49,253 nt of DNA from Bacteroidales bacterium. Lineage in GTDB: Bacteria; Bacteroidota; Bacteroidia; Bacteroidales; Paludibacteraceae. This document shows, in pieces, positions 13,203 through 42,011 of this stretch (the stretch's first letter is position 1; the number at the start of each line of letters is the position of its first letter). Location of the stretch: NCBI GenBank assembly GCA_012518275.1, contig JAAYSS010000108.1, forward strand, positions 1 through 49,253, given 5' to 3'. The notes under the pieces were generated by a model. The model was not told the origin of the DNA, did not search any database, and saw only the letters and a list, made by a program, of their open reading frames with translations. A program made the translations under genes and the position numbers.

Positions 13203-13234
13203 TATTTTTGCAATATCAATTGTGTATGTACACA
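13203..13234 (+). promoter_or_regulatory. susC promoter -7 box and LacI-type operator 1
   Basis: TATTTTTG at 13203-13210 is a perfect Bacteroidota -7 box, followed by CA. At 13221-13234 lies TGTGTATGTACACA, one base from the palindrome TGTGTACGTACACA. The operator would sit in the first ~20 transcribed bases, where a bound LacI protein would block transcription. The 539-bp regulator-susC gap (12827-13365) otherwise holds only AT-rich sequence, including an AAAAATATATTTTT palindrome near 12967. Confidence 0.7.
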
Positions 13235-13365
13235 GTGATTTTAATTGTTGCTAAGTTAACAAATAAAAGGTTGTAATATGTTTTACAACTTTGTTGTTTC
13301 ACAATTTTATTCTTAAAGAAGAAGTAAAACAATCAAATAATTATCTTTATTTTAAATCTAACAGA

Positions 13366-16300
13366 ATGAGAACACATGAAAAACTATTTTATGTATTAAT
13401 TTTTGTCTTGTTAGCATTTTCAAGTAAAAATGTTTCAGCATCAGTAGATGCAAATATTGAAATGCAACAAGCAGAAAAAGTAATCAGAGGTACTGTCAGT
13501 TCACAAGATGGAGAGCCGCTAATCGGGGTTTCCGTGAAAATTTTAGGCGCAACTGCAGCTGGTGCTATCACGAATGTTGATGGTGAATACTCCATTAAAG
13601 TCCCAAGTAACACACGCAGCTTGCAATTCACTTATGTAGGGATGAAGCCATTGACTATTGATATTGATGGACGAGCATCAATAAATGTTACACTAGAAGA
13701 TGAAGCAATTGGATTGAATGAAGTGGTGGCAATTGGATATGGAACTGCACGAAGAAAAGACCTAACAGGTTCCGTCTCGTCGGTAAGTTCAGAGACACTT
13801 GCAGGAATTCCAGTTGCATCTCCAACCGAAGCTTTAACAGGTAAAATGGCAGGAGTGCAAGTAACTACAACAGAAGGCTCACCTGATGCAGAAATGAAAA
13901 TTCGTGTACGTGGTGGTGGTTCAATCACGCAGAGCAACGAACCGCTTTTTATTGTTGATGGTTTCCCGGTATCTTCTATTTCTGATATTCCACCTACGGA
14001 TATCGAATCAATTGACGTGTTGAAAGATGCTTCTTCTACAGCAATCTACGGATCTCGAGGTGCAAATGGTGTAGTTATTGTAACTACAAAATCAGGGGAA
14101 ACAGGAAAGGTCAGTGTAAATTACAATGCATATTTTGGTCTAAAAAAGATAGCCAAAACACTTGATGTGCTTGAACCGTATGATTATGTAAAATGGCAAT
14201 ACGAATTGGCCTCATTGAAAAGTTCCAACGAAATGAATAAATATGTTTCGTTCTTTGGAAATTATCAAGACTTGGACCTTTATCAAGGAGTTCCTTTCAA
14301 TGATTGGCAAGACCTAACATTCGGACGAACGGGCAACACCTTCAATCACAACCTAAATGTAACCGGTGGTTCAGACAAAATGCGTTTTTCATTCAGCTAT
14401 TCCCACATGAATGATAAAGCAATCATGCAGCAATCGAGTTTTAAGAGAGATAACCTAAGCTTGAAATTAAATAACAAGATTACAAATACTCTTTCGTTGA
14501 ATTTATCAGCCAGAATGTCAAATACCGATATTACTGGGGGTGGAGCCAACGATACTAAAAGTACTTACGACTCGGATAAAAGGCTGAAGTATTCTGTTAT
14601 TTACACCCCGATTCCTGTTAAGAATTTGGATGAAACTGCGGGTAGTGAAGACGAAGAGCTTGGAAACTTGTACAATCCGTTAGAATCAATTGACGATAAT
14701 GCGCGTGAAAAAAATCGTAAAAATTGGAATTTAGGCGCTAATCTGACTTGGGAAGCAATAAAAAATCTCCGCTTGAGAACAGAAGTAGGACTTGATGACA
14801 AAAACTATGAAGATAAGAGATATTGGGGTTTGACTACTTATTACATCAAAAACGTTCCGGCTTCTGCCAATCAGAATAAACCTGCAATTCAACTTTTAAA
14901 CAGAAAAGGAAAAGCGTTGAGAAATAGTAATACTGTGAGTTACAACTTTAAAAACGACTTGCCCGAAAAGCATGGAATGGACGTAATGGTTGGACACGAG
15001 TATATTATTGAAAAGAAGAATACGCTGACAAACATTGTTCACGGTTTCCCAGAATCGTTCAGTGCTAAAGACGCTTGGAAACTTTCTACTCAAGGAGTTC
15101 CTTTCTCTACTGAAAATTTTATTAATGAAGACGATAAGCTATTATCATTCTTCGGTAGGGCAAATTACGATTTTGATAGTAAATATCTGTTGAGTTTTAC
15201 ATTCAGAGCTGACGCGTCATCGCGTTTCAGTAAAGAAAATCGTTGGGGCTATTTCCCATCTGTAGCCGCTGCTTGGCGTGTATCTTCCGAGCCGTTTATG
15301 GAAAACACTCGCTCTTGGCTAGATGACTTAAAATTGAGATTCAGCTACGGAACGGCAGGTAATAATAATATCCCTACAGGTCAAATGTCCCAAAACTACA
15401 CATCGAGTGCCACTTCGTGGATCAATGGATTTTCCAATTATTGGGCTCCCTCAAAAACGATGGCAAATCCTGACCTCAAATGGGAAACCACTATAACACG
15501 TAACTTGGGATTGGATATCACTACATTGAACAGCAGATTAAGCGGAACGATTGAAGCATATCTGAACTCAACTCGAGACTTGCTTATCAAGTTTCCTGTT
15601 TCGGGAACCGGTTATGATACTCAATACCGTAATATGGGAAATACTGAAAACAAAGGTATTGAGTTTTCTGCCAACTACATTGCCATTGATACTAAAAATT
15701 TTGGTTTGACAATGAATGCTAATATTGGTTTCAACAAATCGAAAATTACAAACCTAGGAATGATGGACGATTTTGGAGCAGAGACTTACTGGGCTTCATC
15801 TGAAATTGGTTACGATTACTGGATTGCCGTAGGTGGTGCTGTTGGACAAATGATTGGATATCGTTCTGACGGTAGATACGAAGTAGATGACTTTGAAAGT
15901 GTTGATGAAAATGGAAATTGGAAACTAAAATCTGGAGTAGCAGATGCCTCGGCAGTAGTGGGAACTATTCGTCCGGGAAGCATGAAATTAAAAGATTTAA
16001 CAGGTGAAGGAGTGGTTACAACCGATGATCGGGAAGTAATCGGCGATGCAAATCCGCTTCATACAGGTGGTTTCAATTTAAATGCACGAGTTTACGGCTT
16101 TGATTTTGGAGCCGGATTTAACTGGAGTGTCGGCAATGATATTTACAACGCTAATAAAATTGAATTTACTCAAACTGGTAAATATCAGTTTAGAAATATG
16201 ATTGACATCATGGCAGACGGAAAACGTTGGACTAATTTACGTTCCGATGGAACCATTTCCAACGACCCTGCTGAACTTAAAGAAATGAACACGAATACAA

Positions 16301-16602
16301 CCATGTGGTCACCTTACACAGCACGCATGGTGCTTAGCGATTGGGCAATAGAAAAAGCTTCTTTTTTACGCCTGAACACACTTACATTCGGTTACACATT
16401 GCCAAAAAGCGCCACGAAAGCCATTCGTGTACAAACTTTGCGTTTCTATGTTACTGGTTATAACGTGTTTGTTTTAACCAACTATTCAGGCTATGACCCC
16501 GAAGTTTCAACTATTCGAAATACAAACTTGACTCCAGGTGTTGATTATTCAGCTTATCCAAGAAGCCGTCAAGTTGTATTTGGATTAAATATTGGTTTCT
16601 AA
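13366..16602 (+). CDS. SusC/RagA-type TonB-dependent outer-membrane transporter
   Basis: This is the outer-membrane channel that imports pectin oligosaccharides with its SusD partner. A signal peptide occupies the first ~25 residues. A CarboxypepD_reg-like domain (VIRGTVSSQDGEPLIGVSVK) follows, then the plug with the SusC signature (ALTGKMAGVQVTT, KIRVRGGGSIT, IESIDVLKDASSTAIYGSRG), then a 22-strand-type barrel ending in Phe. ATG 13366 (MRTHEKLFYVLIF) is chosen; an upstream TTG at 13291 would place 25 odd residues before the signal peptide. The length of 1078 residues is normal. susD follows 19 bp later. Confidence 0.95.
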   Translation: MRTHEKLFYVLIFVLLAFSSKNVSASVDANIEMQQAEKVIRGTVSSQDGEPLIGVSVKILGATAAGAITNVDGEYSIKVPSNTRSLQFTYVGMKPLTIDIDGRASINVTLEDEAIGLNEVVAIGYGTARRKDLTGSVSSVSSETLAGIPVASPTEALTGKMAGVQVTTTEGSPDAEMKIRVRGGGSITQSNEPLFIVDGFPVSSISDIPPTDIESIDVLKDASSTAIYGSRGANGVVIVTTKSGETGKVSVNYNAYFGLKKIAKTLDVLEPYDYVKWQYELASLKSSNEMNKYVSFFGNYQDLDLYQGVPFNDWQDLTFGRTGNTFNHNLNVTGGSDKMRFSFSYSHMNDKAIMQQSSFKRDNLSLKLNNKITNTLSLNLSARMSNTDITGGGANDTKSTYDSDKRLKYSVIYTPIPVKNLDETAGSEDEELGNLYNPLESIDDNAREKNRKNWNLGANLTWEAIKNLRLRTEVGLDDKNYEDKRYWGLTTYYIKNVPASANQNKPAIQLLNRKGKALRNSNTVSYNFKNDLPEKHGMDVMVGHEYIIEKKNTLTNIVHGFPESFSAKDAWKLSTQGVPFSTENFINEDDKLLSFFGRANYDFDSKYLLSFTFRADASSRFSKENRWGYFPSVAAAWRVSSEPFMENTRSWLDDLKLRFSYGTAGNNNIPTGQMSQNYTSSATSWINGFSNYWAPSKTMANPDLKWETTITRNLGLDITTLNSRLSGTIEAYLNSTRDLLIKFPVSGTGYDTQYRNMGNTENKGIEFSANYIAIDTKNFGLTMNANIGFNKSKITNLGMMDDFGAETYWASSEIGYDYWIAVGGAVGQMIGYRSDGRYEVDDFESVDENGNWKLKSGVADASAVVGTIRPGSMKLKDLTGEGVVTTDDREVIGDANPLHTGGFNLNARVYGFDFGAGFNWSVGNDIYNANKIEFTQTGKYQFRNMIDIMADGKRWTNLRSDGTISNDPAELKEMNTNTTMWSPYTARMVLSDWAIEKASFLRLNTLTFGYTLPKSATKAIRVQTLRFYVTGYNVFVLTNYSGYDPEVSTIRNTNLTPGVDYSAYPRSRQVVFGLNIGF

Positions 16603-16621
16603 CTTATAAAAATATTCTCTA

Positions 16622-18394
16622 ATGAAAAATCTAATTTATTATATAATAACTGTCATGCTGTTTTTGAGTGGAATAACGGCATGCGACATGGAAGCACCTA
16701 CTCAATCAACGATGGATGAGTCTGTAATCTTTTCCACATATGCCCTAGCAGAGCCGGCTGTTATGGGAATACATCAATCTTTTGGAGAGACAAACTCTTA
16801 TAGGGGTAGATATTTGCCATTTTATGGAATAAATTCCGATATAGAATGGATAAATAATGCACCGCAATCAGGAACCGGTATTGCTGATGACGGTAAATAC
16901 TCGCTAACAGGCTATGCCCCAAGCCCTACGAACACACAAATGAATACCGTGAACAATGCATGGGCAAAATTTTACGAAGGAATCGAAAGAGCAAATATGA
17001 TTATCAGGGGATTGCGTACTTACGGCAATATAGAAAAAGACCCTGCAATGGCACAATTATTGGGTGAAACACTTACACTTCGTGCAGTTATTTACCTAGA
17101 TTTGATAAAAGGGTGGGGCGATGTTCCGGCTCGTTTTGAACCGATAACAACTGAAACCCTGTACCTTCCTCGTGTTGACAGAGATACCATTTACAAACAC
17201 ATTCTTGCTGATTTAGCTGAAGCAGAAAACATGGTAGCTTGGCCCAACGAAACCGCAGTAACAAGCAGTACGGAGAGAGTAAATAAGGCTTTTGTGAAAG
17301 GACTTCAAGCTCGAATCGCTCTTTATGCAGCCGGCTACAGTCAAAGAAAAGACGGAATTCGTAAAAGTACAGATCCAGAGTTGAGCGTTAATAAAATGTA
17401 CACTTTGGCAAAAACCAAGGCGCTTGATGTGATTAACAGCGGTACAGTTTCACTAGGAACTTTCGAAGAAAACTTCCGCCGTTTGTGTCAAGATAATACA
17501 AAAGCAGGAAAAGAATCTATTTGGGAAATACCTTTTTCTGACGGACGTGGACGCGTGCTTTACACGTTTGGTGTACAACACAAAGGAATTGACCAATATA
17601 CCGGTCAATCACGGGGTGGTGTGAATGGACCTGTACCAAATCTTTTCTACGATTATGATATAGATGATATTAGACGTGATATTACTTGTGTGCCTTACGA
17701 ATGGTCAAATTCGAATCCGGCAAAACAAGAATTACGCTCTGTCCGCTCTTGGTGTTTTGGAAAACTTCGTTATGAGTGGATGAATCGTCGAGTAACTTCA
17801 ACAAACGACGATGGAATAAACTGGCAGTATCTCCGATTGGCAGATGTGTATATGATGGCAGCTGAAGCCATTAATGAATTGGAAGGTCCTACAGCTGCAG
17901 CTCCATACTTGAAGCCAATTTTGGATCGTGCGTTACCGGCAGAAAAAGTAGCCGCATACATGTCAAAAGCTACGGCAAGTAAAGATGCATTTTTCAAAGC
18001 AATAGTAGATCAACGGGCTTTTGAATTTGCTGGTGAATCATTAAGAAAAGCTGATTTGATTCGTTGGAATTTACTGAAAGAGAAAATGGATGAAGCTAAA
18101 GTAAAAATGAACGATTTGGCAAATAGGCAAGGTGCTTATGCCGATTTACCTGAAAAACTTTATTTCAAAACAGCTGAAGATGGTGAATCATTGATTATTT
18201 ACGGATTGAATCACGGTGATACAGATGAAATAGGTGTGACTTTAGGATACGATACCAATAACTGGCTGACAGAACCGGATAAACTCCCGACAACTTTGAT
18301 AAATACACTATATCAAAAAAATCCGGATGAAAATCAATACTGGCCAATATGGCAAACATTTATTGATAGTAGTAATGGACAATTAACCAATTAG
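16622..18394 (+). CDS. SusD/RagB-type surface glycan-binding lipoprotein
   Basis: This protein forms the lid of the SusC channel and captures glycan at the cell surface. The lipoprotein signal MKNLIYYIITVMLFLSGITAC places the lipidated Cys at residue 21. The SusD fold shows the helical TPR-like regions (GETLTLRAVIYLDLIKGWGD, RVNKAFVKGLQARIALYAAG) and the C-terminal RagB part (LRLADVYMMAAEAINELEG, DQRAFEFAGESLRKADLIRW). At 590 residues it is in the usual range. It lies directly after susC and 4 bp before the next lipoprotein gene. Confidence 0.95.
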   Translation: MKNLIYYIITVMLFLSGITACDMEAPTQSTMDESVIFSTYALAEPAVMGIHQSFGETNSYRGRYLPFYGINSDIEWINNAPQSGTGIADDGKYSLTGYAPSPTNTQMNTVNNAWAKFYEGIERANMIIRGLRTYGNIEKDPAMAQLLGETLTLRAVIYLDLIKGWGDVPARFEPITTETLYLPRVDRDTIYKHILADLAEAENMVAWPNETAVTSSTERVNKAFVKGLQARIALYAAGYSQRKDGIRKSTDPELSVNKMYTLAKTKALDVINSGTVSLGTFEENFRRLCQDNTKAGKESIWEIPFSDGRGRVLYTFGVQHKGIDQYTGQSRGGVNGPVPNLFYDYDIDDIRRDITCVPYEWSNSNPAKQELRSVRSWCFGKLRYEWMNRRVTSTNDDGINWQYLRLADVYMMAAEAINELEGPTAAAPYLKPILDRALPAEKVAAYMSKATASKDAFFKAIVDQRAFEFAGESLRKADLIRWNLLKEKMDEAKVKMNDLANRQGAYADLPEKLYFKTAEDGESLIIYGLNHGDTDEIGVTLGYDTNNWLTEPDKLPTTLINTLYQKNPDENQYWPIWQTFIDSSNGQLTN

Positions 18395-18398
18395 TAAA

Positions 18399-19976
18399 AT
18401 GAAAAAATATAATATGAAATCGAAATCGTTAAAAAAAATAGTATACATTTTCGTGTTTTTCCTTGGATGCGGCTTGGTAGGTTGCTCCGAACCGGCAGAT
18501 GAAATCACGGATATTGAATATGCACGAGCTTTTTCGCCATTTGAATTAACGGCACGCGTTAGAAACCAGATAAATGTTGAGTTAAACTGGGTGCCGGTAA
18601 AAGCCGATAGCTATGTCATTGAAGTTTTTGAAAATGACAGCTTGACATTCTCCCAAACTCCAAAGTTAACTTTTAAAGATGTGAAATCTACTGATATCCC
18701 TTTTACTATTTATGATTTAAACGGGAATACGCCATATTCTTTCAGAGTAAAAGCAATATTAAGTGGAGCAGAAGAATCTAAATGGAGTGGAGTTTTTGTA
18801 AAAACATTAGCAGAAAATATTTTCTTGCCATTTGAAGATACAGATATACAGGCAAACTCGGTTACTCTCCGATGGACTCCAACTCCCAATGTGACAAAAG
18901 TGACTGTTGAAGTTTTAGATGGACAAGTAATAGAACATGTGCTTACTGCTGAAGAAATTACATCCGGCACGGCTGTAATAAATGGTTTGACCGGAGAGAC
19001 CGATTACATTGCAAAAGTTTATAAAGACAACATCCAAAGAGGAAGAACTACATTTACATCATTGATTGACGTGGGAAATGCTATACCTGTGGAAGCAACT
19101 GATGATTTTATAGCCATGCTTGCCAATGCAAATAGTGGCGATGTATTTGCATTATTCCCGGGAACTTACGGAGAATCAAGTAAATTTGTTGTTCCTACAA
19201 ATGTTGAAATAAAAGCAGTTTATCCAAACGATAAACCTATTATTCAAGGGTGTTTCACGGTTGAAAATAATTCTTCGCTACTTCTCAAAGATTTAGTTAT
19301 TGATGGCGCTGGACTTGCAGATGGAAATCAAGCAATTGTTTTTGTAACTTCAGATGCAAATTATGGCGAAATTAAGGTTGATGGTTGTGAAATAAAAAAC
19401 CATGTGAAAGGAGTTTATTACTTGAATGTGGAAGCAACAGTCGATGCCTTGATAATAAATAATACGATAATTCATGATATTCAATGTTCCGGTGGTGATT
19501 TTATGGACAATAGAAAAGGTGCCATCAAGGAGCTTACTTTCACGAATAACACGGTTTATGGTAGTGCGGCGGCTCGTGATTTTATCAGATACGATAATAC
19601 TTCGGCTGCATTTCCAGATATAGCACCAGTTATCACTATTGATAATAACACATTGGATGGAATTGCAAATAACGCTTCGAAAAGAATCTTATACGTAAGA
19701 TTAGCAGGAGCTACAATTTATTTTAGAAATAATATCGTATCCAATACTGTTGGAAATTTCTCGAACCAAAGTACTACGCCAGTTCCAACTTTTTTGAATA
19801 ATAACTATTTTAATGCTCCTGCACTCTTTTCAGATGGTTCTGACGTGGCAAAAGTATTCGATGATTCAGCCAGTGACTTGGACCCCGAATATGCAGCACC
19901 TGCATCCGGTAATTTCAAGGTTTCAAATCAAACAATCATTGATAATGCTATCGGAGACCCACGCTGGTTAAAGTAG
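18399..19976 (+). CDS. Surface lipoprotein with FN3-like domains and a DUF4957/DUF5123-type beta-helix
   Basis: The signal ends in lipobox LVGC with Cys29. Residues ~45-140 and ~145-220 look like two fibronectin III-like domains (VELNWVPVKADSYVIEVFEN; VTLRWTPTPNVTKVTVEVLD). Residues ~235-525 show repeated short strands of a right-handed beta-helix (VDGCEIKNHVKGVYYLNV, LTFTNNTVYG, ITIDNNTLDG, IYFRNNIVSN), as in the DUF4957/DUF5123 proteins common after susD in pectin loci. No GH28 or PL catalytic motif is visible, so a surface glycan-binding role is more likely than catalysis. It lies 4 bp after susD. Confidence 0.8.
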   Translation: MKKYNMKSKSLKKIVYIFVFFLGCGLVGCSEPADEITDIEYARAFSPFELTARVRNQINVELNWVPVKADSYVIEVFENDSLTFSQTPKLTFKDVKSTDIPFTIYDLNGNTPYSFRVKAILSGAEESKWSGVFVKTLAENIFLPFEDTDIQANSVTLRWTPTPNVTKVTVEVLDGQVIEHVLTAEEITSGTAVINGLTGETDYIAKVYKDNIQRGRTTFTSLIDVGNAIPVEATDDFIAMLANANSGDVFALFPGTYGESSKFVVPTNVEIKAVYPNDKPIIQGCFTVENNSSLLLKDLVIDGAGLADGNQAIVFVTSDANYGEIKVDGCEIKNHVKGVYYLNVEATVDALIINNTIIHDIQCSGGDFMDNRKGAIKELTFTNNTVYGSAAARDFIRYDNTSAAFPDIAPVITIDNNTLDGIANNASKRILYVRLAGATIYFRNNIVSNTVGNFSNQSTTPVPTFLNNNYFNAPALFSDGSDVAKVFDDSASDLDPEYAAPASGNFKVSNQTIIDNAIGDPRWLK

Positions 19977-19988
19977 AATAACATTCAA

Positions 19989-20029
19989 AATACACGGTTT
20001 GCGACAAACAATGTCGTGAATCGTGTATT
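19989..20029 (+). other. Long RNA hairpin between the surface-lipoprotein and GH28 genes
   Basis: AATACACG (19989-19996) pairs with CGTGTATT (20022-20029). GTTTG pairs with TGAAT by U-A and G-U pairs, and CGACA (20002-20006) pairs with TGTCG (20012-20016) around the loop AACAA. The result is an 18-bp RNA stem with a 5-base loop. No T-run follows, so it is not a standard terminator. It may stabilise or process the transcript so that susCD-lipoprotein mRNA differs in level from the enzyme mRNA. Confidence 0.6.
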
Positions 20030-20056
20030 GTAAACATCTAAAATTTTCACTTACAA

Positions 20057-21733
20057 ATGAAATTTCTTAAAGCATTATTTATTGCCTTTTTTGTAATTTT
20101 ACTTTCTGCTTGTGCATCACAGAAATCGGTTTCAAACTATCCTTATGAACATCTTTACAAGAATTTACCTTTTGAAATGCCAAAGTTAAAAGCGCCGGTT
20201 TTTCCCAATAACAAGGTAAATTTAGCTGATATGGGTGGTGTCCCTGATGGAATAACGCTGAACACGGATGCTTTCGAAAAATCGATGAAAGCACTTGCCG
20301 ATAAAGGCGGTGGAACATTAGTTGTTCCAAAAGGAGTTTGGTTTACGGGACCGATTGTTTTTCGTTCAAATATAAATATGCATTTGGAAAAAGGGGCTTT
20401 GATACTTTTTTCACCTAATTTCAAACTCTATCCGATTGTCGAAACTGTATTTGAAGGGTTAGACACTCGAAGGTGTCAATCTCCAATTTCTGGTAGAAAC
20501 TTGGAAAATATTGCCATAACAGGATATGGTTCAATAGATGGTTCTGGAGATGCTTGGAGACCATTGAAGAAGGAAAAGGTAACGAATAAAATGTGGAAGA
20601 AAAAAATTTCGTCAGGTGGAATTGTAAGGAATAAAAACACATGGTTCCCTTCTGAAAGCTCGCTTAAAGGTTTTGAAATCAGCGATATGAACGTTCCGCG
20701 AAAAGACTTATCTGAAGCTCAATGGCTGGAAATAAAAGATTTTTTACGCCCTGTTATGGTAAGTTTTATTGGGTGTAAAAATGTGTTTCTTCAAGGAGTT
20801 CTTTTTGAAAATTCACCCGCTTGGAATATCCATCCTTTGATGTGTGAGAATGTGATTGTTGACGGTATTTACGTGAAAAATCCGAGTTATTCTCAAAACG
20901 GGGATGGAATCGATCTTGAGTCTTGTGTAAATTCAATTGTAGTCAATAGCACGTTTGATGTGGGTGATGACGCAATTTGCATTAAATCTGGAAAAGATGA
21001 AGATGGTCGTCGTCGTGCTCGTCCTACAGTAAATTTAATTGTTGATAATTGCAAAGTATTTCACGGTCATGGAGGATTTATTGTTGGAAGTGAGATGTCC
21101 GGTGGTGTAAAAAATATTGCAGTTAAAAATTGCCAATTCCTTGGTACAGATGTCGGATTGCGATTTAAGAGCACACGCGGACGGGGTGGAATTGTAGAAA
21201 ATATCTATATCTCAGATATCTATATGTTTAATATTGCGACAGAATCATTTCTTTTTGATTTGTTTTACGGGGGCAAATCAGCTTCAGAATCATTGGATGA
21301 TGGTGATGTGACTCCCAAAGAAGAAGTTTATCCACCAGTTGATGAGACAACACCTATTTTCAGAAATATTTATGTAGAGAATATTATTTCTCGTAATGCA
21401 CGAAGAGCATTGTTGTTTAACGGTTTACCTGAAATGAATATTGAAAATATCCATTTGAAAAATGCTTTCATTACTTCGAAAATTGGTGCAGAGTTGTCTG
21501 AATCTAAAAATATTGTTTTTGAAAACGTAACAGTAATTCCGCGAAAAGGACCTGCTTACAGCTTAAATAATGTCAAAAATTTTAAGTCAGAAAAATTGGC
21601 TTTTGATGAAAACAATACTCGAAATGCAATTCGAATTGAAGGAAAAAAGACAAAAGACATCCAATTGCCAAAATTAGCAACCGACGTTGTTGAAATTTCG
21701 TCAGAGGTAAATAAATCAGAAGTAAAATTATGA
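20057..21733 (+). CDS. GH28 polygalacturonase, lipoprotein
   Basis: This enzyme hydrolyses alpha-1,4-galacturonosyl bonds in (oligo)galacturonan. A lipobox LLSAC (Cys19) predicts an envelope lipoprotein. The GH28 beta-helix shows the family catalytic set: NGDGID (281-286, Asp283), GDDAI (Asp304/Asp305), GHGG (His338) and RFKS (Arg369, Lys371; RIK in most members). The N-terminal NLADMGGVPDGITLNTDAF is also typical. At 558 residues it is longer than simple GH28 enzymes. Exo or endo action, or rhamnogalacturonan specificity, cannot be fixed from sequence. The stop overlaps the CE12 start by 4 bp. Confidence 0.93.
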   Translation: MKFLKALFIAFFVILLSACASQKSVSNYPYEHLYKNLPFEMPKLKAPVFPNNKVNLADMGGVPDGITLNTDAFEKSMKALADKGGGTLVVPKGVWFTGPIVFRSNINMHLEKGALILFSPNFKLYPIVETVFEGLDTRRCQSPISGRNLENIAITGYGSIDGSGDAWRPLKKEKVTNKMWKKKISSGGIVRNKNTWFPSESSLKGFEISDMNVPRKDLSEAQWLEIKDFLRPVMVSFIGCKNVFLQGVLFENSPAWNIHPLMCENVIVDGIYVKNPSYSQNGDGIDLESCVNSIVVNSTFDVGDDAICIKSGKDEDGRRRARPTVNLIVDNCKVFHGHGGFIVGSEMSGGVKNIAVKNCQFLGTDVGLRFKSTRGRGGIVENIYISDIYMFNIATESFLFDLFYGGKSASESLDDGDVTPKEEVYPPVDETTPIFRNIYVENIISRNARRALLFNGLPEMNIENIHLKNAFITSKIGAELSESKNIVFENVTVIPRKGPAYSLNNVKNFKSEKLAFDENNTRNAIRIEGKKTKDIQLPKLATDVVEISSEVNKSEVKL

Positions 21734-22518: not shown

Positions 22519-22608
22519 CCTGAAAATCATAACTCTTCTAATTAATACCTAACCTTGATTATCAAAGTTCAATTGAAAAAAGAACAAAAAAAATTAACAA
22601 ACATTTAA

Positions 22609-24660: not shown

Positions 24661-24664
24661 AAGA

Positions 24665-26026: not shown

Positions 26027-26106
26027 CTACAAACAAATATTCAAACTCAAACAAATGAAATTAATTTGAATTAAATCCCTACAACGGAACTAACGGCAAA
26101 TACACT

Positions 26107-30233: not shown

Positions 30234-30246
30234 TTTCCAAAGTTCG

Positions 30247-30290
30247 ACCAATGGTAATCTTAGATTAGATTATCATTGGTTGTTTTTTTG
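30247..30290 (+). terminator. Intrinsic terminator after the 29529 gene
   Basis: A 13-bp stem ACCAATGGTAATC (30247-30259) / GATTATCATTGGT (30268-30280), with one G-U pair and an 8-base loop, is followed by TGTTTTTTTG. It makes the operator 2-29529 unit monocistronic. Confidence 0.85.
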
Positions 30291-30317
30291 TCTATTCAAA
30301 ATTACTACAATCATTTG

Positions 30318-30558
30318 ATGAAGAAACATCACTTCATATTTATCAGTACTATTTTCTTCTTACCTAAAATTGCTTTTTCTCAGAAAGCTAAAGTTGAGTT
30401 TATCAAGCAGGATTCCAAATTTCAACTTGGAGTATTCATAAACGGAAATTATTTTAAGACCAAAACAAAAAATTGTATTTAAACACAAATTAGTGGTGTC
30501 AGGAATTCTCACTGATGATAAAATTAATGAGATAAAAACCGATTTTTGGCGCCGTTAA
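30318..30558 (+). pseudogene. Internally deleted remnant, possibly DUF6807 (PmoA-like)
   Basis: The frame from 30318 gives a signal peptide (MKKHHFIFISTIFFLPKIAFS) and KVEFIKQDSKFQLGVFINGN before stopping at 30482. In the next frame about 28 codons up to the stop at 30556-30558 read IVFKHKLVVSGILTDDKINE then IKTDFWRR. The first part resembles the N-terminus of DUF6807 proteins (the xINGxYFTxY region) and the second their C-terminus (YRLVVHxGxLT...IN). The middle of the gene appears lost. The family name is a low-certainty reading; the broken state is clear. The rest of the 30234-30577 gap holds the terminator. Confidence 0.45.
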
Positions 30559-30577
30559 TTTTTTACCGTGATATTCA

Positions 30578-33142: not shown

Positions 33143-33203
33143 TCATAAATGATTTTACCTTCAATTTTATAATTTGGTGGTTGTAGAATAACTATTTATT
33201 AAA

Positions 33204-34823: not shown

Positions 34824-34868
34824 CAGCAGTTACAAGAAAACACAAAATTTGTAAATCGTATATCTTCA

Positions 34869-36737
34869 ATGAAAAATTCAAAGTTTATATTAACTTGTAT
34901 TATCCTTTTATACAGCATCGGTTTGGTTTCTCAAACTGTTTTAATTCAGGGTATTAGTCGTGATACAAGCTATACGGTTTATAGTTCTTTTGTCAAAGAG
35001 AAAAAGAAATTTCCGTTTATCCAATTAGTTGATACAAAGGCTGATGATTTGGAGATTTACAACGATATTCCTTACAAATCGATTTCTGCAGCGCGAAAAC
35101 TTTCGTTAAATATTTTCCGACCGAAATCAGTTGAAAAACTTCCTGTAATTTTGATGATACACGGTGGGGGATGGAATTCCGGATCGCCCGAATTGCAAAG
35201 AGCATTGGCTGTGAATTTAGCACGAAAAAATTTCGTTACCATTACTGTCGAATACCGTTTGATTCCCGAAGCAATTTATCCCGCAGGAGTAGAAGATTTG
35301 GAAGACGCGGTGAGTTGGATAGCGGAAAATTCAGAAAACTACAATATTGATAAAAGTAAAATTGCTGTTTCAGGCTGTTCTGCCGGTGGTCATCTAGCTA
35401 ATTTGCTTGGTACAAAAAATGAGAAGAAACTAATAAAAGCAGTTGTAAACATTGATGGACTTTCTACTTTCATTGAACCTGCTATCGTGGAAAGAGCGAG
35501 AAAAGCTCGTGAAACCAGTTCTAAAATGCCTGTAGATGCATTGTGGCTTGGAGGTACGTATGATGAATGTCCTGAAACTTGGAAAAAAGCATCCCCACTG
35601 TATCACGTAAATGAAAATTCTGCCCCCGTTTGCTTCATCAACAGCTCTATTCCGCGTTTCCACAGCGGTCGTGATGAGCAAATCCGACTGCTTGATATGA
35701 TGAAGAAATACTCTGAAGTCCACATGTTTGAAAAAAGTCCACACACATTTTGGCATTTTCATCCGTGGCATTTATCAACAGTAAATTTCGCAGCAAATTT
35801 TTTGGATAAAATTTTCAATAACGAAAAATCCAATTTCGACAAGAAAGGATTTGATATCGTAGTTGCTCAAGATGGTAGTGGTGATTTTGCTTCAGTACAG
35901 CAAGCTATAAATGCCGTTCCAGATTTTCGCAAAAAACAGACAAAAATTTTCATCCGGAATGGCTATTACTACGAAAAAATAATTATTCCCGAAACGAAAG
36001 ACAGCCTGATTCTGATTGGTGAAGATAAATTCAAGACCATCCTTTCGTTTAATAACTTTGCTTCTAAACCATCCGGGTTGGGCGATCAACTCGGAACTTC
36101 TGGCTCGGCGAGTGTATATATTTCTCCTGCAAATTTTCGAGCAGAAAATATCACGTTTGAAAACGGATCAGGTCCAGTTGGTCAGGCGGTTGCAGTGATT
36201 GTAAGGAGCGATAAGGCAAGTTTTGTGAACTGCCGTTTCATCGGCTTTCAAGACACGCTTTACACGCACAAAATCGGTAGTCGGCAATATTATAAAAGCT
36301 GCTACATTGAAGGAACGGTTGATTTTATTTTTGGCTTTTCAACTGCTTTTTTTGAAGATTGTGAGATTTTTTGCAAGAATAACGGCTATGTTACCGCTCC
36401 TTCAACTCCAAAAGACACACCTTTCGGCTATGTTTTTTATAAATGCAACATCACGGGCGAAAATCCCAAGTCCTTTTACTTAGGCAGACCATGGCGTCCT
36501 TTCGGAAATGTTGCTTTCATCGAATGTGAAATGAGCGACGTCATCAAATCCGAAGGTTGGGATAATTGGCGAAATCCGAATAATGAGAAAACCGCAAAAT
36601 TTATCGAATACAAAAATACCGGCAAAGGTGGAAATTTGCAGAACAAACGGGTAAAATGGTCAAATATATTGACTGAAAAACAAGCTAGAAAATACACAAA
36701 AGAAAATGTGCTGGGTACTGATTTTTTTCATGATTAA
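34869..36737 (+). CDS. Bifunctional esterase: alpha/beta-hydrolase fused to CE8 pectin methylesterase
   Basis: Signal peptide ~1-22. The N-terminal domain (~60-325) is an alpha/beta-hydrolase esterase: oxyanion motif HGGGW (98-102), nucleophile GCSAGG (Ser171), and late acid/His candidates in SIPRFHSGRD and HTFWHFHPWH. The CE8 domain (~330-610) has FQDTLY (Gln461, Asp462), VDFIFG (Asp485) and GRPWRPFG (Arg540). It would remove acetyl or aryl esters and methyl esters from the same pectin chain. There is no T9SS domain, so the periplasm is likely. A hairpin terminator follows. Confidence 0.92.
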   Translation: MKNSKFILTCIILLYSIGLVSQTVLIQGISRDTSYTVYSSFVKEKKKFPFIQLVDTKADDLEIYNDIPYKSISAARKLSLNIFRPKSVEKLPVILMIHGGGWNSGSPELQRALAVNLARKNFVTITVEYRLIPEAIYPAGVEDLEDAVSWIAENSENYNIDKSKIAVSGCSAGGHLANLLGTKNEKKLIKAVVNIDGLSTFIEPAIVERARKARETSSKMPVDALWLGGTYDECPETWKKASPLYHVNENSAPVCFINSSIPRFHSGRDEQIRLLDMMKKYSEVHMFEKSPHTFWHFHPWHLSTVNFAANFLDKIFNNEKSNFDKKGFDIVVAQDGSGDFASVQQAINAVPDFRKKQTKIFIRNGYYYEKIIIPETKDSLILIGEDKFKTILSFNNFASKPSGLGDQLGTSGSASVYISPANFRAENITFENGSGPVGQAVAVIVRSDKASFVNCRFIGFQDTLYTHKIGSRQYYKSCYIEGTVDFIFGFSTAFFEDCEIFCKNNGYVTAPSTPKDTPFGYVFYKCNITGENPKSFYLGRPWRPFGNVAFIECEMSDVIKSEGWDNWRNPNNEKTAKFIEYKNTGKGGNLQNKRVKWSNILTEKQARKYTKENVLGTDFFHD

Positions 36738-36767
36738 AGTGAACGGCACAGACATTCTTGTCGATGC

Positions 36768-36797
36768 ACAGAAATCGGTTGTTTATTTCTGTTTTTA
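36768..36797 (+). terminator. Intrinsic terminator after the esterase fusion
   Basis: Stem ACAGAAAT (36768-36775) / ATTTCTGT (36785-36792), loop of 9, followed by TTTTA. The T-run is short, so termination may be partial. Confidence 0.6.
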
Positions 36798-36860
36798 TAG
36801 CGAATAAGAATGACCGTGATTCTGAAAACAAAAATAAACAAAACAAAAACAGATAAAACA

Positions 36861-38072
36861 ATGAAAATCAATCGTTTAATCTTATTGTTCTTTTTGAGCG
36901 TATTAATGCTTAACGCTCATTCTCAAATTATTACAGTGAAAAATAATTCTTCGGTTGTAATCAAAGATTTTGTAGCTGAAGTTCCTATAAAAAAATTAAA
37001 GCTTTCTATCGGAAATTATGTTGTAGTGTCTCAAAACGGAGAGATTGTTCCGCTTGAATTAGTTGCAGATTTGAAAGGAAATGAATTTGCTGTTTTTCCA
37101 ATCAAAAAAATAGATGCTAAATCCACATTATCCTTCAAAATTCAAAAAGGAACAGCTGATAAATATCCAAAGCGGACGTATGCCGAGTTGGCACATAAAA
37201 TCGGCGGGAAATTCAACGGAAACAAGTATGAAGGCGGATTTTCATGGGTAAAACCAAACTATTTGAAAGTCCCCGGTACATTCCGTGATCACGCCTATTA
37301 CATCAAGTACGAAGGCCCGGGCTGGGAGAGCGATAAAGTAGGCTACCGTTTTTATCTCGATCAACGAAATGCGATTGATGCTTTCGGCAAAAAAACATCA
37401 GGGATGGTTCTTCCTGCCGTTGGCGTGGATGGGTACGACAATTACCATTTGATGGCTGATTGGGGTATGGACAACATGAAGGTTGGCAAAACTTTAGGGA
37501 TTGGTTCAATCGGTTATTTTAATGGTAGTAAAGCGATTCGAATTGAAAAACGCGATAGTGCAGTTTGTTTCATACCGACGGACGGAAAAGTGCGCTCGCA
37601 GGTAAATACTACTTATTATGGTTGGGATGTTGATGAAAATATATTCAATTTAAAATCACTTATCACGATTGATGCTGGTAGTAAAGCTTCAAGAATGGAA
37701 CTTTTGGCTGACAAAACTGTTGATAACCTGACTACCGGAATTATTAAAAACAAGAATGCAGAATTGATTAAATCGCCGGAAAATGATGGAGAATGGGCTT
37801 ATATAGCCACATTTGGCAAGCAAAGCTTGAACGATGATAATCTTGGATTTGCTGTTTTTTATAAAAAGAAACAATTGAAAACCATTACCGAAGACGCTAT
37901 TAATCATCTTGTTGTATTGCAACCCGAGAATGGCTTTGTTGAATATTATTTCATGGCTTCTTGGGAAATGGACTGGGAGAGTGCAAAAACAAGAACTTTA
38001 TTCTTAAATGGCGTTGAAGAACAGCTTGTTAGGCTGAATAGTGAAATTCAAATAAAAGTAAAAAGGAGATAG
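36861..38072 (+). CDS. DUF4861 family exported protein
   Basis: ATG 36861 (MKINRLILLFFLSVLMLNAHS, signal peptide) is preferred to the one at 36810, which would add a charged 17-residue leader. The mature protein (~380 residues) starts with a small beta domain (ITVKNNSSVVIKDFVAEVPI). It then has the DUF4861 pattern: FSWVKPNYLKVPGTFRDHAY, YEGPGWESDKVGYRFYLDQR, LMADWGMDNMKVGKTLGIGS and a C-terminal YYFMASWEMDWESA. The family has no settled function but often neighbours GH88/GH105 and uronate genes. Conserved Trp, Asp, His and Arg suggest a sugar-acting enzyme. It lies before the uxaC promoter. Confidence 0.85.
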   Translation: MKINRLILLFFLSVLMLNAHSQIITVKNNSSVVIKDFVAEVPIKKLKLSIGNYVVVSQNGEIVPLELVADLKGNEFAVFPIKKIDAKSTLSFKIQKGTADKYPKRTYAELAHKIGGKFNGNKYEGGFSWVKPNYLKVPGTFRDHAYYIKYEGPGWESDKVGYRFYLDQRNAIDAFGKKTSGMVLPAVGVDGYDNYHLMADWGMDNMKVGKTLGIGSIGYFNGSKAIRIEKRDSAVCFIPTDGKVRSQVNTTYYGWDVDENIFNLKSLITIDAGSKASRMELLADKTVDNLTTGIIKNKNAELIKSPENDGEWAYIATFGKQSLNDDNLGFAVFYKKKQLKTITEDAINHLVVLQPENGFVEYYFMASWEMDWESAKTRTLFLNGVEEQLVRLNSEIQIKVKRR

Positions 38073-38172: not shown

Positions 38173-38192
38173 TACTTTTGTGGACGTACACA
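38173..38192 (+). promoter_or_regulatory. uxaC promoter -7 box and LacI-type operator 3
   Basis: TACTTTTG at 38173-38180 fits TAnnTTTG. It overlaps by two bases the palindrome TGTGGACGTACACA (38179-38192), one base from the consensus. Repressor binding here would mask the start site. The uxaC ATG is 43 bp further on. Confidence 0.75.
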
Positions 38193-38234: not shown

Positions 38235-39641
38235 ATGAAAAGCTTTATTCACGATGATTTTTTACTACAAAGTGATGCAGCCAAAGAATTGTATCACAAT
38301 CATTCAAAGAAACAACCAATCATCGACTATCACTGTCACTTAATTCCGGAGTACATTGCCAAAGACCATCAGTTTGATAATTTGGGACAGATTTGGTTGG
38401 AAGGCGACCACTATAAGTGGCGTGCAATGCGTACGAACGGTATCGATGAAAAATACTGTACGGGGAAGGACACTTCCGATTGGGAAAAATACGAAAAATG
38501 GGTAGAAACAGTACCTTATACGATGCGGAATCCACTTTATCATTGGACGCATCTAGAACTTAAACGTGCCTTCGGGGTGGACGAACTGCTTAATCCGTCT
38601 TCCGGAAAACGGATATACGATATTTGCACCGAGCAGTTGCGTACCAAGGAATTTTCTGCACGTGGATTGATGAAGAAGTTTAACGTGAAAGTTGTGTGTA
38701 CGACCGACGACCCGGTAGATTCGCTGGAACATCACATCTCGTTGAAAAATGAAGGTTTCGAAATAAAGGTGCTTCCGACTTGGCGTCCTGATAAAGCGAT
38801 GGCAGTTGAAAACCCGGCAGAATATCGGAAATACGTTGAAAAACTCAGTGAAGTTTCGGGCGTTTCCATTTCAAACTTTGCCGATTTATTGCAGGCTCTA
38901 CAAGTTCGCCACGATTTCTTTGCAAGTGTTGGTTGTAAGCTTTCCGACCACGGAATTGAAGAGTTTTATGCTGAAGATTATACGCAAGCTGAAATTGAAG
39001 CGATTTTCAATAAAGTTTACGGTGGTCAAGAACTTTCACAAGAAGAAATTCTGAAATTCAAATCGGCAATGCTTTACGAAGGTGCCGTGATGGATTGGGA
39101 AAAAGGCTGGACACAACAGTTTCATTATGGTGCAATTCGAAATAATAATTCCAGATTGTTTAGGCAGTTAGGTGCCGATACAGGTTTTGACAGTATCGGT
39201 GATTTCACGGTAGCCAAAACAATGAGTAAATTTCTTAATAGTTTGGACAACAACGATAAACTTGCAAAAACCATCATTTATAATTTGAATCCGCGTGATA
39301 ATGACCTGATTGCTACAATGATAGGAAATTTCCAAGACGGATCGGTTGCCGGTAAAATTCAATTCGGTTCCGGATGGTGGTTTTTGGACCAAAAAACGGG
39401 TATGGAAGCACAATTAAATTCACTTTCCAATCTTGGATTATTGAGTCGATTTGTTGGGATGCTGACAGATAGCCGTAGTTTCTTGTCTTATCCGCGCCAC
39501 GAGTACTTCCGCCGTATCCTTTGCAATCTTATCGGTAATGACGTTGAAAAAGGTCTTCTGCCAAAATCAGAAATGAAATTTTTGGGAGAAATGGTTGAAA
39601 ACATATCTTATTTTAACGCAAAAAAATTCTTTAACTTTTAG
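38235..39641 (+). CDS. uxaC: Uronate isomerase
   Basis: UxaC converts D-galacturonate to D-tagaturonate (and glucuronate to fructuronate), the first cytoplasmic step after pectin breakdown. The amidohydrolase-like metal site DYHCHLIPEYIA (His33, His35) is present. Other family stretches are WLEGDHYKWRAMRTNGI, VVCTTDDPVDSLEHH, LPTWRPDKAM, QFHYGAIRNNN and GMLTDSRSFLSYPRHEYFRR. The length of 468 residues is normal. It heads the operator 3 unit with uxaE and the SDR gene. Confidence 0.97.
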   Translation: MKSFIHDDFLLQSDAAKELYHNHSKKQPIIDYHCHLIPEYIAKDHQFDNLGQIWLEGDHYKWRAMRTNGIDEKYCTGKDTSDWEKYEKWVETVPYTMRNPLYHWTHLELKRAFGVDELLNPSSGKRIYDICTEQLRTKEFSARGLMKKFNVKVVCTTDDPVDSLEHHISLKNEGFEIKVLPTWRPDKAMAVENPAEYRKYVEKLSEVSGVSISNFADLLQALQVRHDFFASVGCKLSDHGIEEFYAEDYTQAEIEAIFNKVYGGQELSQEEILKFKSAMLYEGAVMDWEKGWTQQFHYGAIRNNNSRLFRQLGADTGFDSIGDFTVAKTMSKFLNSLDNNDKLAKTIIYNLNPRDNDLIATMIGNFQDGSVAGKIQFGSGWWFLDQKTGMEAQLNSLSNLGLLSRFVGMLTDSRSFLSYPRHEYFRRILCNLIGNDVEKGLLPKSEMKFLGEMVENISYFNAKKFFNF

Positions 39642-39692
39642 AAAAACAAATATTATAAAAATCAATTTTGTAAATCATAAAAAACATAGAAA

Positions 39693-40940
39693 ATGAAATT
39701 AGGAAAATTCAGTATTGGAGTGGGAGACCGTTTCTCTCATCAAGGTAAAGCGCAATTGCGGGCTATCATGAAAGCCAATAAAAGTGGTTTGGAAATTAAC
39801 CCAGTTTGGAATAAATCAAATCGCGAACACACGTATGTTCACTCAGAACCGATTGATACGCGCAGAGAAGCTGACGAAGCTGTAAATGCACTTGGCTATA
39901 CAGGACCATATTTTGTTGATGCCGACCATATAAACTTGAGTACGGTAGATCGTTATATAGCTGTATCAGACTTTTTTACACTCGACGTGGCTTCATTTAT
40001 CGGGAAACCGAGTGCGCAAGAAGATGTTGATAAATTCATAGCATCGTGCGAAAAATACATCGGACAGCTTAAAATTCCTGGAATTGAAAAACCATTGGAA
40101 ATAACTAAAGAATTACTTGAAAAAATAGCTAATAAATTCTTATCTGCTACACAACAAGCATCTGATATCTATGCTCACTTGGTAAAAGAAAAAGGTGCCG
40201 GAAATTTCATCACGGAAGTTTCAATGGATGAAGTGGAAAGTCCACAAACTCCGGTTGAAATGCTTTTTATCCTGAAGATGTTAGCAGACAAAGGCGTTCC
40301 CGCTCAAACAATCGCTCCGAAATTTACGGGTCGTTTCAATAAAGGTGTTGATTATGTTGGTGATTTAGAGCAATTTGCCAAGGAGTTTGAAGAAGACGTT
40401 TTGGTGATAGATTACGCTGTGAAAGAGTTCGGATTGCCGGAAGAGCTGAAATTAAGTGTTCACTCCGGTAGCGATAAATTCTCCATTTATCCGATTATGG
40501 CTGAAATCATCAACCGCTACGATAAGGGTCTCCATCTGAAAACAGCCGGCACTACGTGGCTCGAAGAAGTAATCGGACTTGCAAAAGCTGGGGGCGACGG
40601 TTTGGCTTTGGCAAAGAAAATTTATGCTAATTCATTGAACAGAAAAGATGAACTTTGTGCACCGTATGCAGATGTGATTGACATTGACGCATCTAAACTG
40701 CCATCAATCGAAGAAGTTAATAGTTGGACGAGTGAAAAATATCAAAATACGCTTCGCCACATCCCTGAGCACCCGGATTATAATTCTAACTTCCGCCAGT
40801 TAATACATGTGGCTTATGCCGTAGCTGCAGAAATGGGCTCAGAGTATACAATTCTGCTTGAAAAGTACGAAGATATTATTGGTAGTTGCGTTGAAGAAAA
40901 TATTTATGAAAGACATTTGAAACGATTGTTTGCATTGTAA
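39693..40940 (+). CDS. uxaE: Tagaturonate epimerase family protein
   Basis: The protein begins MKLGKFSIGVGDRFSHQGKA, followed by VWNKSNREHTYVHSEP, PYFVDADHINLSTVDRYI, APKFTGRFNKGVDYVGD, LSVHSGSDKFSIYPIM and LHLKTAGTTWLEE. These fit the UxaE family, first described in Thermotoga, which epimerises tagaturonate to fructuronate. HSGSDKF and the acidic and His residues fit a metal-dependent barrel. Its place between uxaC and a fructuronate reductase-like SDR gives exactly the missing link between galacturonate and mannonate. At 415 residues it is a complete cytoplasmic protein. Biochemical function in this lineage is inferred. Confidence 0.78.
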   Translation: MKLGKFSIGVGDRFSHQGKAQLRAIMKANKSGLEINPVWNKSNREHTYVHSEPIDTRREADEAVNALGYTGPYFVDADHINLSTVDRYIAVSDFFTLDVASFIGKPSAQEDVDKFIASCEKYIGQLKIPGIEKPLEITKELLEKIANKFLSATQQASDIYAHLVKEKGAGNFITEVSMDEVESPQTPVEMLFILKMLADKGVPAQTIAPKFTGRFNKGVDYVGDLEQFAKEFEEDVLVIDYAVKEFGLPEELKLSVHSGSDKFSIYPIMAEIINRYDKGLHLKTAGTTWLEEVIGLAKAGGDGLALAKKIYANSLNRKDELCAPYADVIDIDASKLPSIEEVNSWTSEKYQNTLRHIPEHPDYNSNFRQLIHVAYAVAAEMGSEYTILLEKYEDIIGSCVEENIYERHLKRLFAL

Positions 40941-41029
40941 TCTAAAGGTTTATTAAATTTAGCTACAAGACAAATATTTGCGTTTTTTGAAAATCCATTG
41001 TTTATTGTAAAATCAAAAATATAATTATC

Positions 41030-41842
41030 ATGTACAAATTATTTGACATTAAAGACCGAGTGATAGCTATCACCGGCGGAACAGGCGTGCTTGGAACGAG
41101 CATGGTGGAATATCTTGCATCCCATGGAGCGAAAGTTGCTGTAATGGCGCGTAATAAAGAAAAAGGTGACAAACTGATTGAAAAAGTGAAAGCCAATGGT
41201 GGTGAAGCCATATTTTTGGTAACTGATGTAACCGATGAAGCTATTTTGAAACAGAATGCCAAAGACATCATTGCGAAATATGGAAAAATAGATGTGTTAA
41301 TCAACGCTGCTGGAGGAAATATGCCCGGAGCAACCATTGGTCCGGATAATAATATCTTTGATTTAAAAACGGATGACTTCCGTGAAGTGGTTAATTTGAA
41401 CCTGATGGGAACAGTTATCCCAACTGTTGTTTTTGCAGAATATATGGTTAATGCAAAGCAGGGAAACATCGTAAATATCTCGTCAGCGTCGGCATTACGT
41501 CCGCTCACGCGTGTGGCAGGCTACGGCTCGGCAAAAGCAGCTGTAACTAATTTTACCAAGTACATGGCAGGCGAAATGGCAATTAAATTTGGTGAAACAT
41601 TCCGTGTAAATGCTATCTGCCCCGGATTTTTCATTACCGATCAAAACCGTGCGTTACTCACCAATCCCGATGGAAGTTATTCTGACCGTGGCAATACAAT
41701 TATTGCTCACACACCGTTCCGTCGTTTCGGAGTTCCCGAAGACCTGCTCGGAACCTTACATTATTTGGTTAGCGATGCTTCTAAATTTGTAACAGGAACA
41801 GTTGCTATTGTAGATGGTGGATTTGATGCATTTAGTATTTAG
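41030..41842 (+). CDS. uxuB: SDR oxidoreductase, probable fructuronate reductase / D-mannonate oxidoreductase
   Basis: This is a classical SDR: cofactor motif TGGTGVLG (15-22), NAAGG (92-96), catalytic Ser151/152 and YGSAK (Tyr165, Lys169), then CPGFFITDQNR. This type resembles the Bacillus YjmF/UxuB enzymes that reduce D-fructuronate to D-mannonate with NADH. The position directly after uxaC and uxaE supports that role. A 2-keto-3-deoxygluconate or 5-keto-gluconate reductase is the main alternative. Mannonate dehydratase (uxuA) and KDG kinase/aldolase are not in the window. Confidence 0.75.
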   Translation: MYKLFDIKDRVIAITGGTGVLGTSMVEYLASHGAKVAVMARNKEKGDKLIEKVKANGGEAIFLVTDVTDEAILKQNAKDIIAKYGKIDVLINAAGGNMPGATIGPDNNIFDLKTDDFREVVNLNLMGTVIPTVVFAEYMVNAKQGNIVNISSASALRPLTRVAGYGSAKAAVTNFTKYMAGEMAIKFGETFRVNAICPGFFITDQNRALLTNPDGSYSDRGNTIIAHTPFRRFGVPEDLLGTLHYLVSDASKFVTGTVAIVDGGFDAFSI

Positions 41843-41989
41843 AAATTGAGTTAAACCGTTAATTGGTAAAATATAAATGGAATTAATCAAGCTCAGGTTA
41901 TAAACAAACTTCTACACTTAGATAAGGAGTTTTTAGTTTCGATTAACATTATTTAGATAATTATATTTTAATATTTAAATAAATAAATG

Positions 41990-42011
41990 TTTCTTTGTGT
42001 ACGTACACAAA
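41990..42011 (+). promoter_or_regulatory. Promoter -7 box and LacI-type operator 4
   Basis: TTTCTTTG (41990-41997) resembles the TAnnTTTG box. It overlaps an 18-bp perfect palindrome TTTGTGTACGTACACAAA (41994-42011), the best of the four sites. The flank TGAG..TCAA after it is shared with operator 3. The ATG of the next gene is 36 bp away. Confidence 0.75.

Follow-up and report, generated by a model that had tools for sequence, protein, structure and literature searches.

The window, a 49,253-nucleotide stretch of DNA from an uncultured Bacteroidales genus (Paludibacteraceae; assembly GCA_012518275.1, contig JAAYSS010000108.1), encodes a pectin polysaccharide utilization locus (PUL) and, transcribed divergently from its susC gene, a LacI-family regulator. 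Four copies of a 14-bp palindrome, TGTGTACGTACACA, precede the gene units of the locus and are candidate operators of this regulator. The regulator, sites and units are, in order:

11735..12826, minus strand: LacI-family regulator gene (PF00356, 2.3e-17; PF13407, 2.6e-36; both over cut-off)
13221..13234, no strand: candidate operator 1, TGTGTATGTACACA, one mismatch, centre TG; its counterparts beside lacI in three same-genus genomes keep 12 of 14 bases
13366..29316, plus strand: probable operon of susC, susD, a DUF4957/DUF5123 protein, GH28, a GDSL esterase, two PelZ-like proteins and a pectinesterase (Pfam, NCBIfam)
29412..29425, no strand: candidate operator 2, TGTGTACGAACACA, one mismatch; 14 of 14 bases kept in the same-genus genomes G004 and G005
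29529..38072, plus strand: second module of a 234-aa protein, a pectate lyase with CBM77 and a type IX secretion system (T9SS) tail, GH43, a two-domain esterase (BD-FAE/pectinesterase) and a DUF4861 protein (Pfam)
38179..38192, no strand: candidate operator 3, TGTGGACGTACACA, one mismatch; G004 and G005 keep 13 of the 14 bases
38235..41842, plus strand: uronate catabolism unit of UxaC isomerase, UxaE tagaturonate epimerase and a short-chain dehydrogenase/reductase (SDR) of the D-mannonate oxidoreductase subfamily (PF02614 1.5e-204, PF16257 3.9e-57, NF006132 over cut-off)
41996..42009, no strand: candidate operator 4, a perfect TGTGTACGTACACA with no mismatch; the G004 counterpart keeps 13 of 14 bases
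42047..46450, plus strand: fourth unit of a GFO/IDH/MocA oxidoreductase, a PF07470 (GH88-model) glycosidase and a 517-aa protein (domain matches)

Scans of the window and of the whole assembly (2,397,942 bases, 90% complete) at up to one mismatch returned exactly the sites at 13221, 29412, 38179 and 41996. This bears out the first-pass annotation, which had described four such copies, all in intergenic DNA and with no equally good copy in coding sequence; the many unrelated genomic matches that would have spoken against a regulon did not appear, and the reversed pattern gave 0 matches in the same assembly. A first-order Markov model predicts 0.0039 copies in the window at this threshold. The four sites are intergenic in a window with only 13% non-coding DNA by our gene list, and they occupy four of the five gaps longer than 100 bp in the cluster (the gap at 30234–30577 has none). 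Relaxing the search to three mismatches added one match to the window (47654, three mismatches), with a mean of 1.33 and a maximum of 4 matches in 100 shuffles. Six copies with two mismatches occur elsewhere in the assembly, five of them inside open reading frames (ORFs) of at least 100 aa. A looser pattern, YGTGNNCGNNCACR, matched the genome five times (reversed control, once): at 29412, 38179 and 41996 and at two places inside ORFs. It misses the 13221 site because the centre there is TG. The central CG that had been ascribed to all four copies thus holds at the other three, and the counterparts of the 13221 site in G004, G005 and G001 do have CG.

The placement of the sites is typical of LacI operators. 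Distances of 131 (susC, ATG at 13366), 103, 42 and 37 bases separate them, in order, from the start codons, within the 36–135 bp first estimated, and each promoter in the window has a single site. In a survey of the LacI family (PMC4052901), operators are even palindromes (1251 of 1303 regulators), mostly centred on CG (1173 regulators), as had been assumed of the present sites, and more than 75% lie 140 to 30 bp before the start. Two of the sites are associated with exact promoter boxes:

13203..13210, plus strand: Bacteroidetes-type -7 promoter box of susC, TATTTTTG, exact TAnnTTTG; G004, G005 and G001 have an exact box at the matching place
38173..38180, plus strand: -7 promoter box of uxaC, TACTTTTG, exact TAnnTTTG, overlapping operator 3; the overlap is repeated in G004 and G005

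A third box, near operator 4 (41990–41997), has one mismatch to TAnnTTTG, so that the claim of three sites at or just after such a box stands in full for susC and uxaC and in imperfect form here. The susC box and operator are 10 bases apart in the window and 9 to 12 bases apart in G004, G005 and G001. A site on the box at uxaC and after the box at susC is the geometry of a repressor and would fit a block of transcription initiation. An RNA element was considered and rejected: the window has no Rfam match at gathering thresholds, and the loopless palindrome does not resemble a terminator hairpin.

The protein encoded at 11735–12826 has the two parts expected of the LacI family, an N-terminal LacI helix-turn-helix (HTH) and a periplasmic-binding-protein-like effector domain. 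Its gene starts with ATG at 12826, and the frame is open further to a TTG at 12850. The best-scoring solved chain is 3gbv_A, a putative LacI-family regulator, which covers residues 66–359 only. The recognition helix, GVSxGTVDR, is nearly invariant across aligned relatives (the pattern that fetched the 80 loci described below required it) and differs in the one further LacI-family protein found in the assembly. No further sensor or regulator was present among Pfam-matched ORFs between 400 and 11254 (11 of 13 ORFs scanned), where matches include pantoate ligase, ketopantoate hydroxymethyltransferase, pseudouridine synthase and poly(A) polymerase/HD.

Comparison within the genus associates the palindrome with the same promoters. 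Relatives of the regulator (E ≤1e-30) were found in 27 of 101 genomes searched, and close orthologues (64–78% identity) in four besides the window's own, G001, G004, G005 and G036. These four contain 10 sites with at most one mismatch (1, 5, 4 and 0, respectively), eight of which are at the corresponding lacI-susC, 29529-gene, uxaC or GFO promoters. G004 has a site at the places matching all four units, a recurrence that supports the earlier proposal of one predicted regulon over the transporter, secreted module, uronate catabolism and fourth unit. G005 has sites between lacI and susC, before the homologue of the 29529 gene and before uxaC; its GFO homologue (61%) sits within the pectate lyase module and has no site of its own. 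In G001 the site is between lacI and susC, and the contig ends soon after susC. The uxaC-uxaE-SDR unit is preceded by a site in both the window and G004; the G005 contig ends after uxaC. By this motif, the unit fits the regulation of hexuronate catabolic genes predicted for the Bacteroides UxaR, KdgR and UxuR groups.

The genes behind the conserved sites are close orthologues for uxaC (94–95%) and GFO (89%); the 29529 homologues are 66% (G004) and 40% (G005) identical, and the lacI-susC position was matched across genomes by synteny. Across these counterparts, the operators keep 12–14 of 14 bases. The 120-bp upstream flanks have a mean identity of 0.66 (0.57–0.72, n = 8) versus 0.62 for non-orthologous flanks (sd 0.03, maximum 0.67, n = 24). 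By genome group, 25 sites occur in the 27 genomes with a LacI relative and 14 in the 74 without, and the reversed pattern occurs 15 times in all 101. Of the 25, 14 are in the five genomes with close orthologues, the window's included; context was read in the window's own genome, G001, G004, G005, G060 and G068, and sites in the others may fall in coding sequence.

At the sister loci L065:9214–14256 and L070:4449–9301, SusC and SusD are just 39–42% and 30–31% identical to those of the window and the neighbouring enzymes 75–95%; the SusC/SusD pair may have been exchanged under a kept operator. In G005, contig C23 (L073:5796) has a one-mismatch site between genes for a PL11 rhamnogalacturonan lyase and a 905-aa protein with no Pfam match, in a SusCD cluster, and this could be a further regulon member. 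G004 has a second site beside lacI, with two mismatches and 113 bp from the first.

The palindrome also recurs beside more distant relatives of the regulator. We surveyed the best 80 of at least 589 loci confirmed by a scan with the aligned family; they contain near-duplicates (e.g., L103 and L104), so that counts are not independent events. The scan took in the 400 bp before each lacI relative and a further 20 bases (only 145 bp in L149). At up to one, two and three mismatches, 21, 45 and 55 of the 80 loci have a site there. For 59 permuted CG-centred palindromes in the same loci, the means were 0.02, 0.25 and 2.0 and the maxima 1, 4 and 18. Thus, looking next to relatives of the LacI gene, much as the first-pass annotation had proposed for its orthologues, found the motif in 45 of 80 loci at up to two mismatches. 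A motif-free test, which counted CG-centred palindromes only, found one with at least six of seven pairs in 61 of 104 lacI upstream regions; 117 of 144 half-sites began with TGTG or CGTG.

Hexuronate genes often adjoin the lacI relatives in these loci. Among gene matches that score above 150 bits and have over 100 bp of upstream sequence, a site precedes 17 of 42 SDR, 6 of 18 UxaC and 10 of 23 kdgK genes (no more than 1, 1 and 4 with permuted palindromes). These are not independent of the 45 loci because many of the sites are shared with a divergent lacI. No site was counted before UxaE (0/14), kdgA (0/22), GFO (0/1) or GH105 (0/1). SusC genes had no counted site either (0/15), so that control of SusC is no family-wide rule; this count leaves out L118, where a site with two mismatches lies 118 bp ahead of the first SusC residue in the match. 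The shared function thus appears to be uronate control, with control of SusC as a local addition.

A quick maximum-likelihood tree was built from the 80 named loci, 23 of 29 relatives' loci from the 101-genome search, the window protein and one outgroup. The window LacI groups with its three same-genus orthologues (support 100) in a 35-row clade (SH-aLRT 99) whose members include rows from Dysgonomonadaceae, Rikenellaceae and Cryptobacteroides. Outside this clade fall the Bacteroides rows that have uxaC or kdgK-kdgA as neighbours; we infer that they correspond to UxaR and KdgR, whose type proteins are not in the tree (BT0824, BT0487 and BT1434 are not among its rows). Upstream of lacI, sites resembling TGTGTRCGYACACA occur in most of the Bacteroides-type rows with kdgK-kdgA as neighbours. 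Furthermore, five Bacteroides/Mediterranea rows (L131, L138, L149, L164 and L165) all have CCGTTATCGAACACAA upstream of lacI in place of the palindrome, with uxaC nearby in four of the five. The operator may thus have changed its sequence across the wider family.

Other loci illustrate the range of neighbours. In L087 (UBA4912), two TGTGCACGAACACA sites at 11153 and 11376, 223 bp apart, lie between lacI and a GH2/SusC/SusD operon, suggesting a looping arrangement in this relative; the best NCBIfam match of the operon's first gene is the beta-glucuronidase LacZ4, below the model cut-off. In L086 (Proteiniphilum acetatigenes DSM 18083), whose LacI is 57% identical, a perfect site stands about 390 bp upstream of lacI, with DUF6807 genes on its other side; judged by such neighbours, not every LacI member serves uronate genes. 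A similar pectin locus (SusC 57%, SusD 53%, GH28, GH105-like, UxaC) in L155 (Bacteroidales isolate Th196P3bin81) comes with a LacI just 35% identical and no site before lacI.

In the window itself, the genes around the sites make up a PUL, with a SusC/SusD pair (TIGR04056 over cut-off; SusD_RagB) and polysaccharide-degrading enzymes (GH28, PL1 and pectinesterases). The operon at 13366–29316 is predicted from internal gaps of at most 90 bp, and both of its pectate lyase PelZ matches are below cut-off. In the second module, the 234-aa protein has no Pfam match, and a 344-bp gap (30234–30577) with no operator (best, five mismatches) precedes the pectate lyase gene. This gene may have its own separate promoter, and with such a gap 29529–38072 may be more than one transcript. 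The fourth-unit glycosidase, initially called GH105, matches the GH88 model PF07470, and the T9SS tail match of the 517-aa protein is below cut-off.

No sensor gene of a hybrid two-component system (HTCS) was seen in or near the locus: the scanned genes of the window include none, and a search by the Y_Y_Y domain recognised none in the 90% complete assembly. Two Y_Y_Y proteins of the assembly are over cut-off; no kinase or HTH domain was detected in them at E 1e-5 in the stretch read, from which the N-terminal part is cut off. The suggestion that LacI control replaces the hybrid two-component control usual for pectin loci is thus consistent with these scans; as a departure from known systems it holds in part, for LacI control of hexuronate genes is already published and a Gramella pectin PUL includes a repressor gene (see below).

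Taken together, the presence of these four sites and no others in the assembly, their return at the matching promoters of sister genomes and the link between the motif and the LacI clade make it highly probable that the four palindromes are operators of the LacI protein encoded at 11735–12826, which would repress four units until a cytoplasmic pectin product releases it. Binding, repression rather than activation, the effector and the operon boundaries are the predicted parts of this model. In the absence of pectin, a LacI dimer bound at the -7 boxes or directly downstream of them would block transcription of susCD and the pectinase genes, of the secreted pectate lyase and debranching genes, of the uxaC-uxaE-uxuB-like catabolic genes and of the oxidoreductase/unsaturated-glycuronidase unit. 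As inducer we would expect a pectin degradation product present in the cytoplasm, with D-galacturonate or an early intermediate (tagaturonate, for example) the likeliest.

A number of results weigh against this model. No TAnnTTTG box with up to one mismatch was found in the 45 bases before 29412. In G036, whose LacI is 64% identical, the genome has no site with at most one mismatch; the best match on its 5.4-kb lacI contig (L075, C41) has four mismatches, and other window proteins used as queries gave no match on that contig. The flanks are not wholly randomised, as four of the eight pairs exceed the control maximum (0.69–0.72 versus 0.67). At the lacI-susC position the transporters have diverged (SusC 39–42% and SusD 30–31% identical to the window's), and in G004 a PelZ-like gene lies between the site and susC. 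One of the sites in G004 (contig C157, L069:5860) has one mismatch and lies 118 bp before a 172-aa ORF with no visible pectin link; its neighbours are a gene of greA type and a 1052-aa Reg_prop/Y_Y_Y/HisKA_3 sensor. In the family survey, 35 of 80 loci lack a two-mismatch site in the scanned stretch (among them L086, whose perfect site is just outside it), and the absence of counted sites before SusC genes points the same way. Lastly, the predicted regulon stops short of the whole route to central metabolism because kdgK-kdgA has no convincing site and uxuA was not found. The genome's own kdgK-kdgA-MFS cluster has only a three-mismatch site, 74 bp upstream of kdgK, with no counterpart found in G004 (best, five mismatches), and operator control of kdgK was therefore not counted; the upstream sequence available in G005 was 108 bp. 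UxuA (mannonate dehydratase) was not found in the 90% complete assembly and is present in 8 of 13 genomes searched, the window's own included among the 13, and in 5 of 7 other same-genus genomes; its absence is probably an assembly gap.

Other explanations account for parts of this evidence. Chance palindromes in AT-rich intergenic DNA could be invoked for the two-mismatch copies elsewhere in the genome and for single one-mismatch copies in genomes without the regulator, but with about 0.004 copies expected in the window, no other copy in 2.4 Mb and recurrence at corresponding promoters, the comparative results refute a chance origin, to which we assign virtually no probability. The sites could instead be bound by a different hexuronate-gene regulator encoded elsewhere, with the neighbouring LacI controlling something else. 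Several regulator families bind palindromes, binding by LacI is a prediction, and such a protein could be missing from an assembly that is about 90% complete. However, in 45 of 80 loci the palindrome precedes a lacI relative; it also stands at the corresponding sister-genome promoters, comes close in frequency to the reversed control in genomes that have no LacI relative and has the even, CG-centred form that is the LacI norm (PMC4052901), and the assembly's only other LacI found differs in its recognition helix. These sequence comparisons favour the earlier assignment of the sites to LacI and make another regulator very unlikely.

The mode of action is a separate matter, as the LacI protein could be an activator, or could loop between distant operators, rather than act as a simple roadblock. 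One site lies 10 bases past its box and another has no recognisable box, and both the paired sites of L087 and the second site beside lacI in G004 would suit looping. We nevertheless consider activation or looping unlikely given that the uxaC site overlaps the -7 box in three genomes, the susC site follows its box, and each promoter of the window has a single site.

Simple repression of the pectin locus by this LacI protein has precedents in part. LacI-family UxaR, UxuR, KdgR and UxmR regulons for hexuronates and mannuronate have been predicted in Bacteroides (Ravcheev et al., 2013; PMC3878776), and UxaR, UxuR and KdgR form one Bacteroides branch (PMC4052901, published in 2014). Like the window regulator, these are LacI proteins with predicted control of galacturonate, glucuronate and ketodeoxygluconate (KDG) genes; unlike them, the window LacI belongs to a separate clade and has a predicted regulon that takes in a pectin SusCD and secreted pectinases. 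The KdgR regulon is described as including some periplasmic or extracellular proteins, and the ManR and AraR regulons as including SusCD operons (PMC3878776). ManR and AraR thus also join a monosaccharide regulator to SusC/SusD and extracellular enzymes, but they are GntR and NrtR proteins for mannose and arabinose, whereas the window system concerns uronates. HTCS_Rgu-1 and HTCS_Rgu-2 likewise control genes for pectin or rhamnogalacturonan degradation, through an AraC-type output and direct repeats (PMC3878776), and none was seen in the window and assembly scans.

Outside Bacteroides, the pectin PUL of Gramella flava JLT2011 combines pectinases, SusC/SusD, uxaC, uxuB and kdgK with a gene labelled exuR, a hexuronate operon repressor; the text consulted gives no operators, and the susCD of this PUL is reported as not up-regulated on pectin (PMC5306329). 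Algoriphagus marincola HL-49, also of the Bacteroidetes, has a LacI-family UxuR2 described as controlling galacturonate and glucuronate loci; unlike the window system, it is coupled to a TRAP transporter and a GH109-family enzyme, with no SusCD in the text consulted (PMC5507952). In Segatella copri, a LacI-like gene near KDG genes is described as not up-regulated on pectins (PMC11784079). A literature search by exact sequence returned no paper with the 14-mer TGTGTACGTACACA, and among the matches listed for LacI, pectin and PUL, no title or abstract opening describes the present regulon. LacI hexuronate regulons and SusCD under other sugar regulators were thus known; the predicted joining of a related LacI clade to a whole pectin locus, SusCD included, in an uncultured Bacteroidales genus is new and well supported.

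The analysis proposes a concrete operator, regulator and four-unit regulon for the pectin locus of this genus and would extend LacI-type uronate control to the SusCD step, which the account of Bacteroides pectin loci in PMC3878776 assigns to hybrid two-component sensors. If so, induction would track an intracellular monomer rather than a periplasmic oligosaccharide, which would change the kinetics of induction and require some basal leakage of the enzymes. Together with the genes beside it, the motif offers a means of annotating uronate regulons throughout the Bacteroidales. In a broader reading, which we regard as evenly poised between right and wrong, a single uronate LacI that senses a cytoplasmic end product took over the whole pectin locus, without an HTCS, and the same clade captured a GH2 beta-glucuronidase-like PUL (UBA4912) and a PL11 rhamnogalacturonan PUL (G005). 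The clade would then be a mobile module coupling uronate catabolism to glycan uptake.

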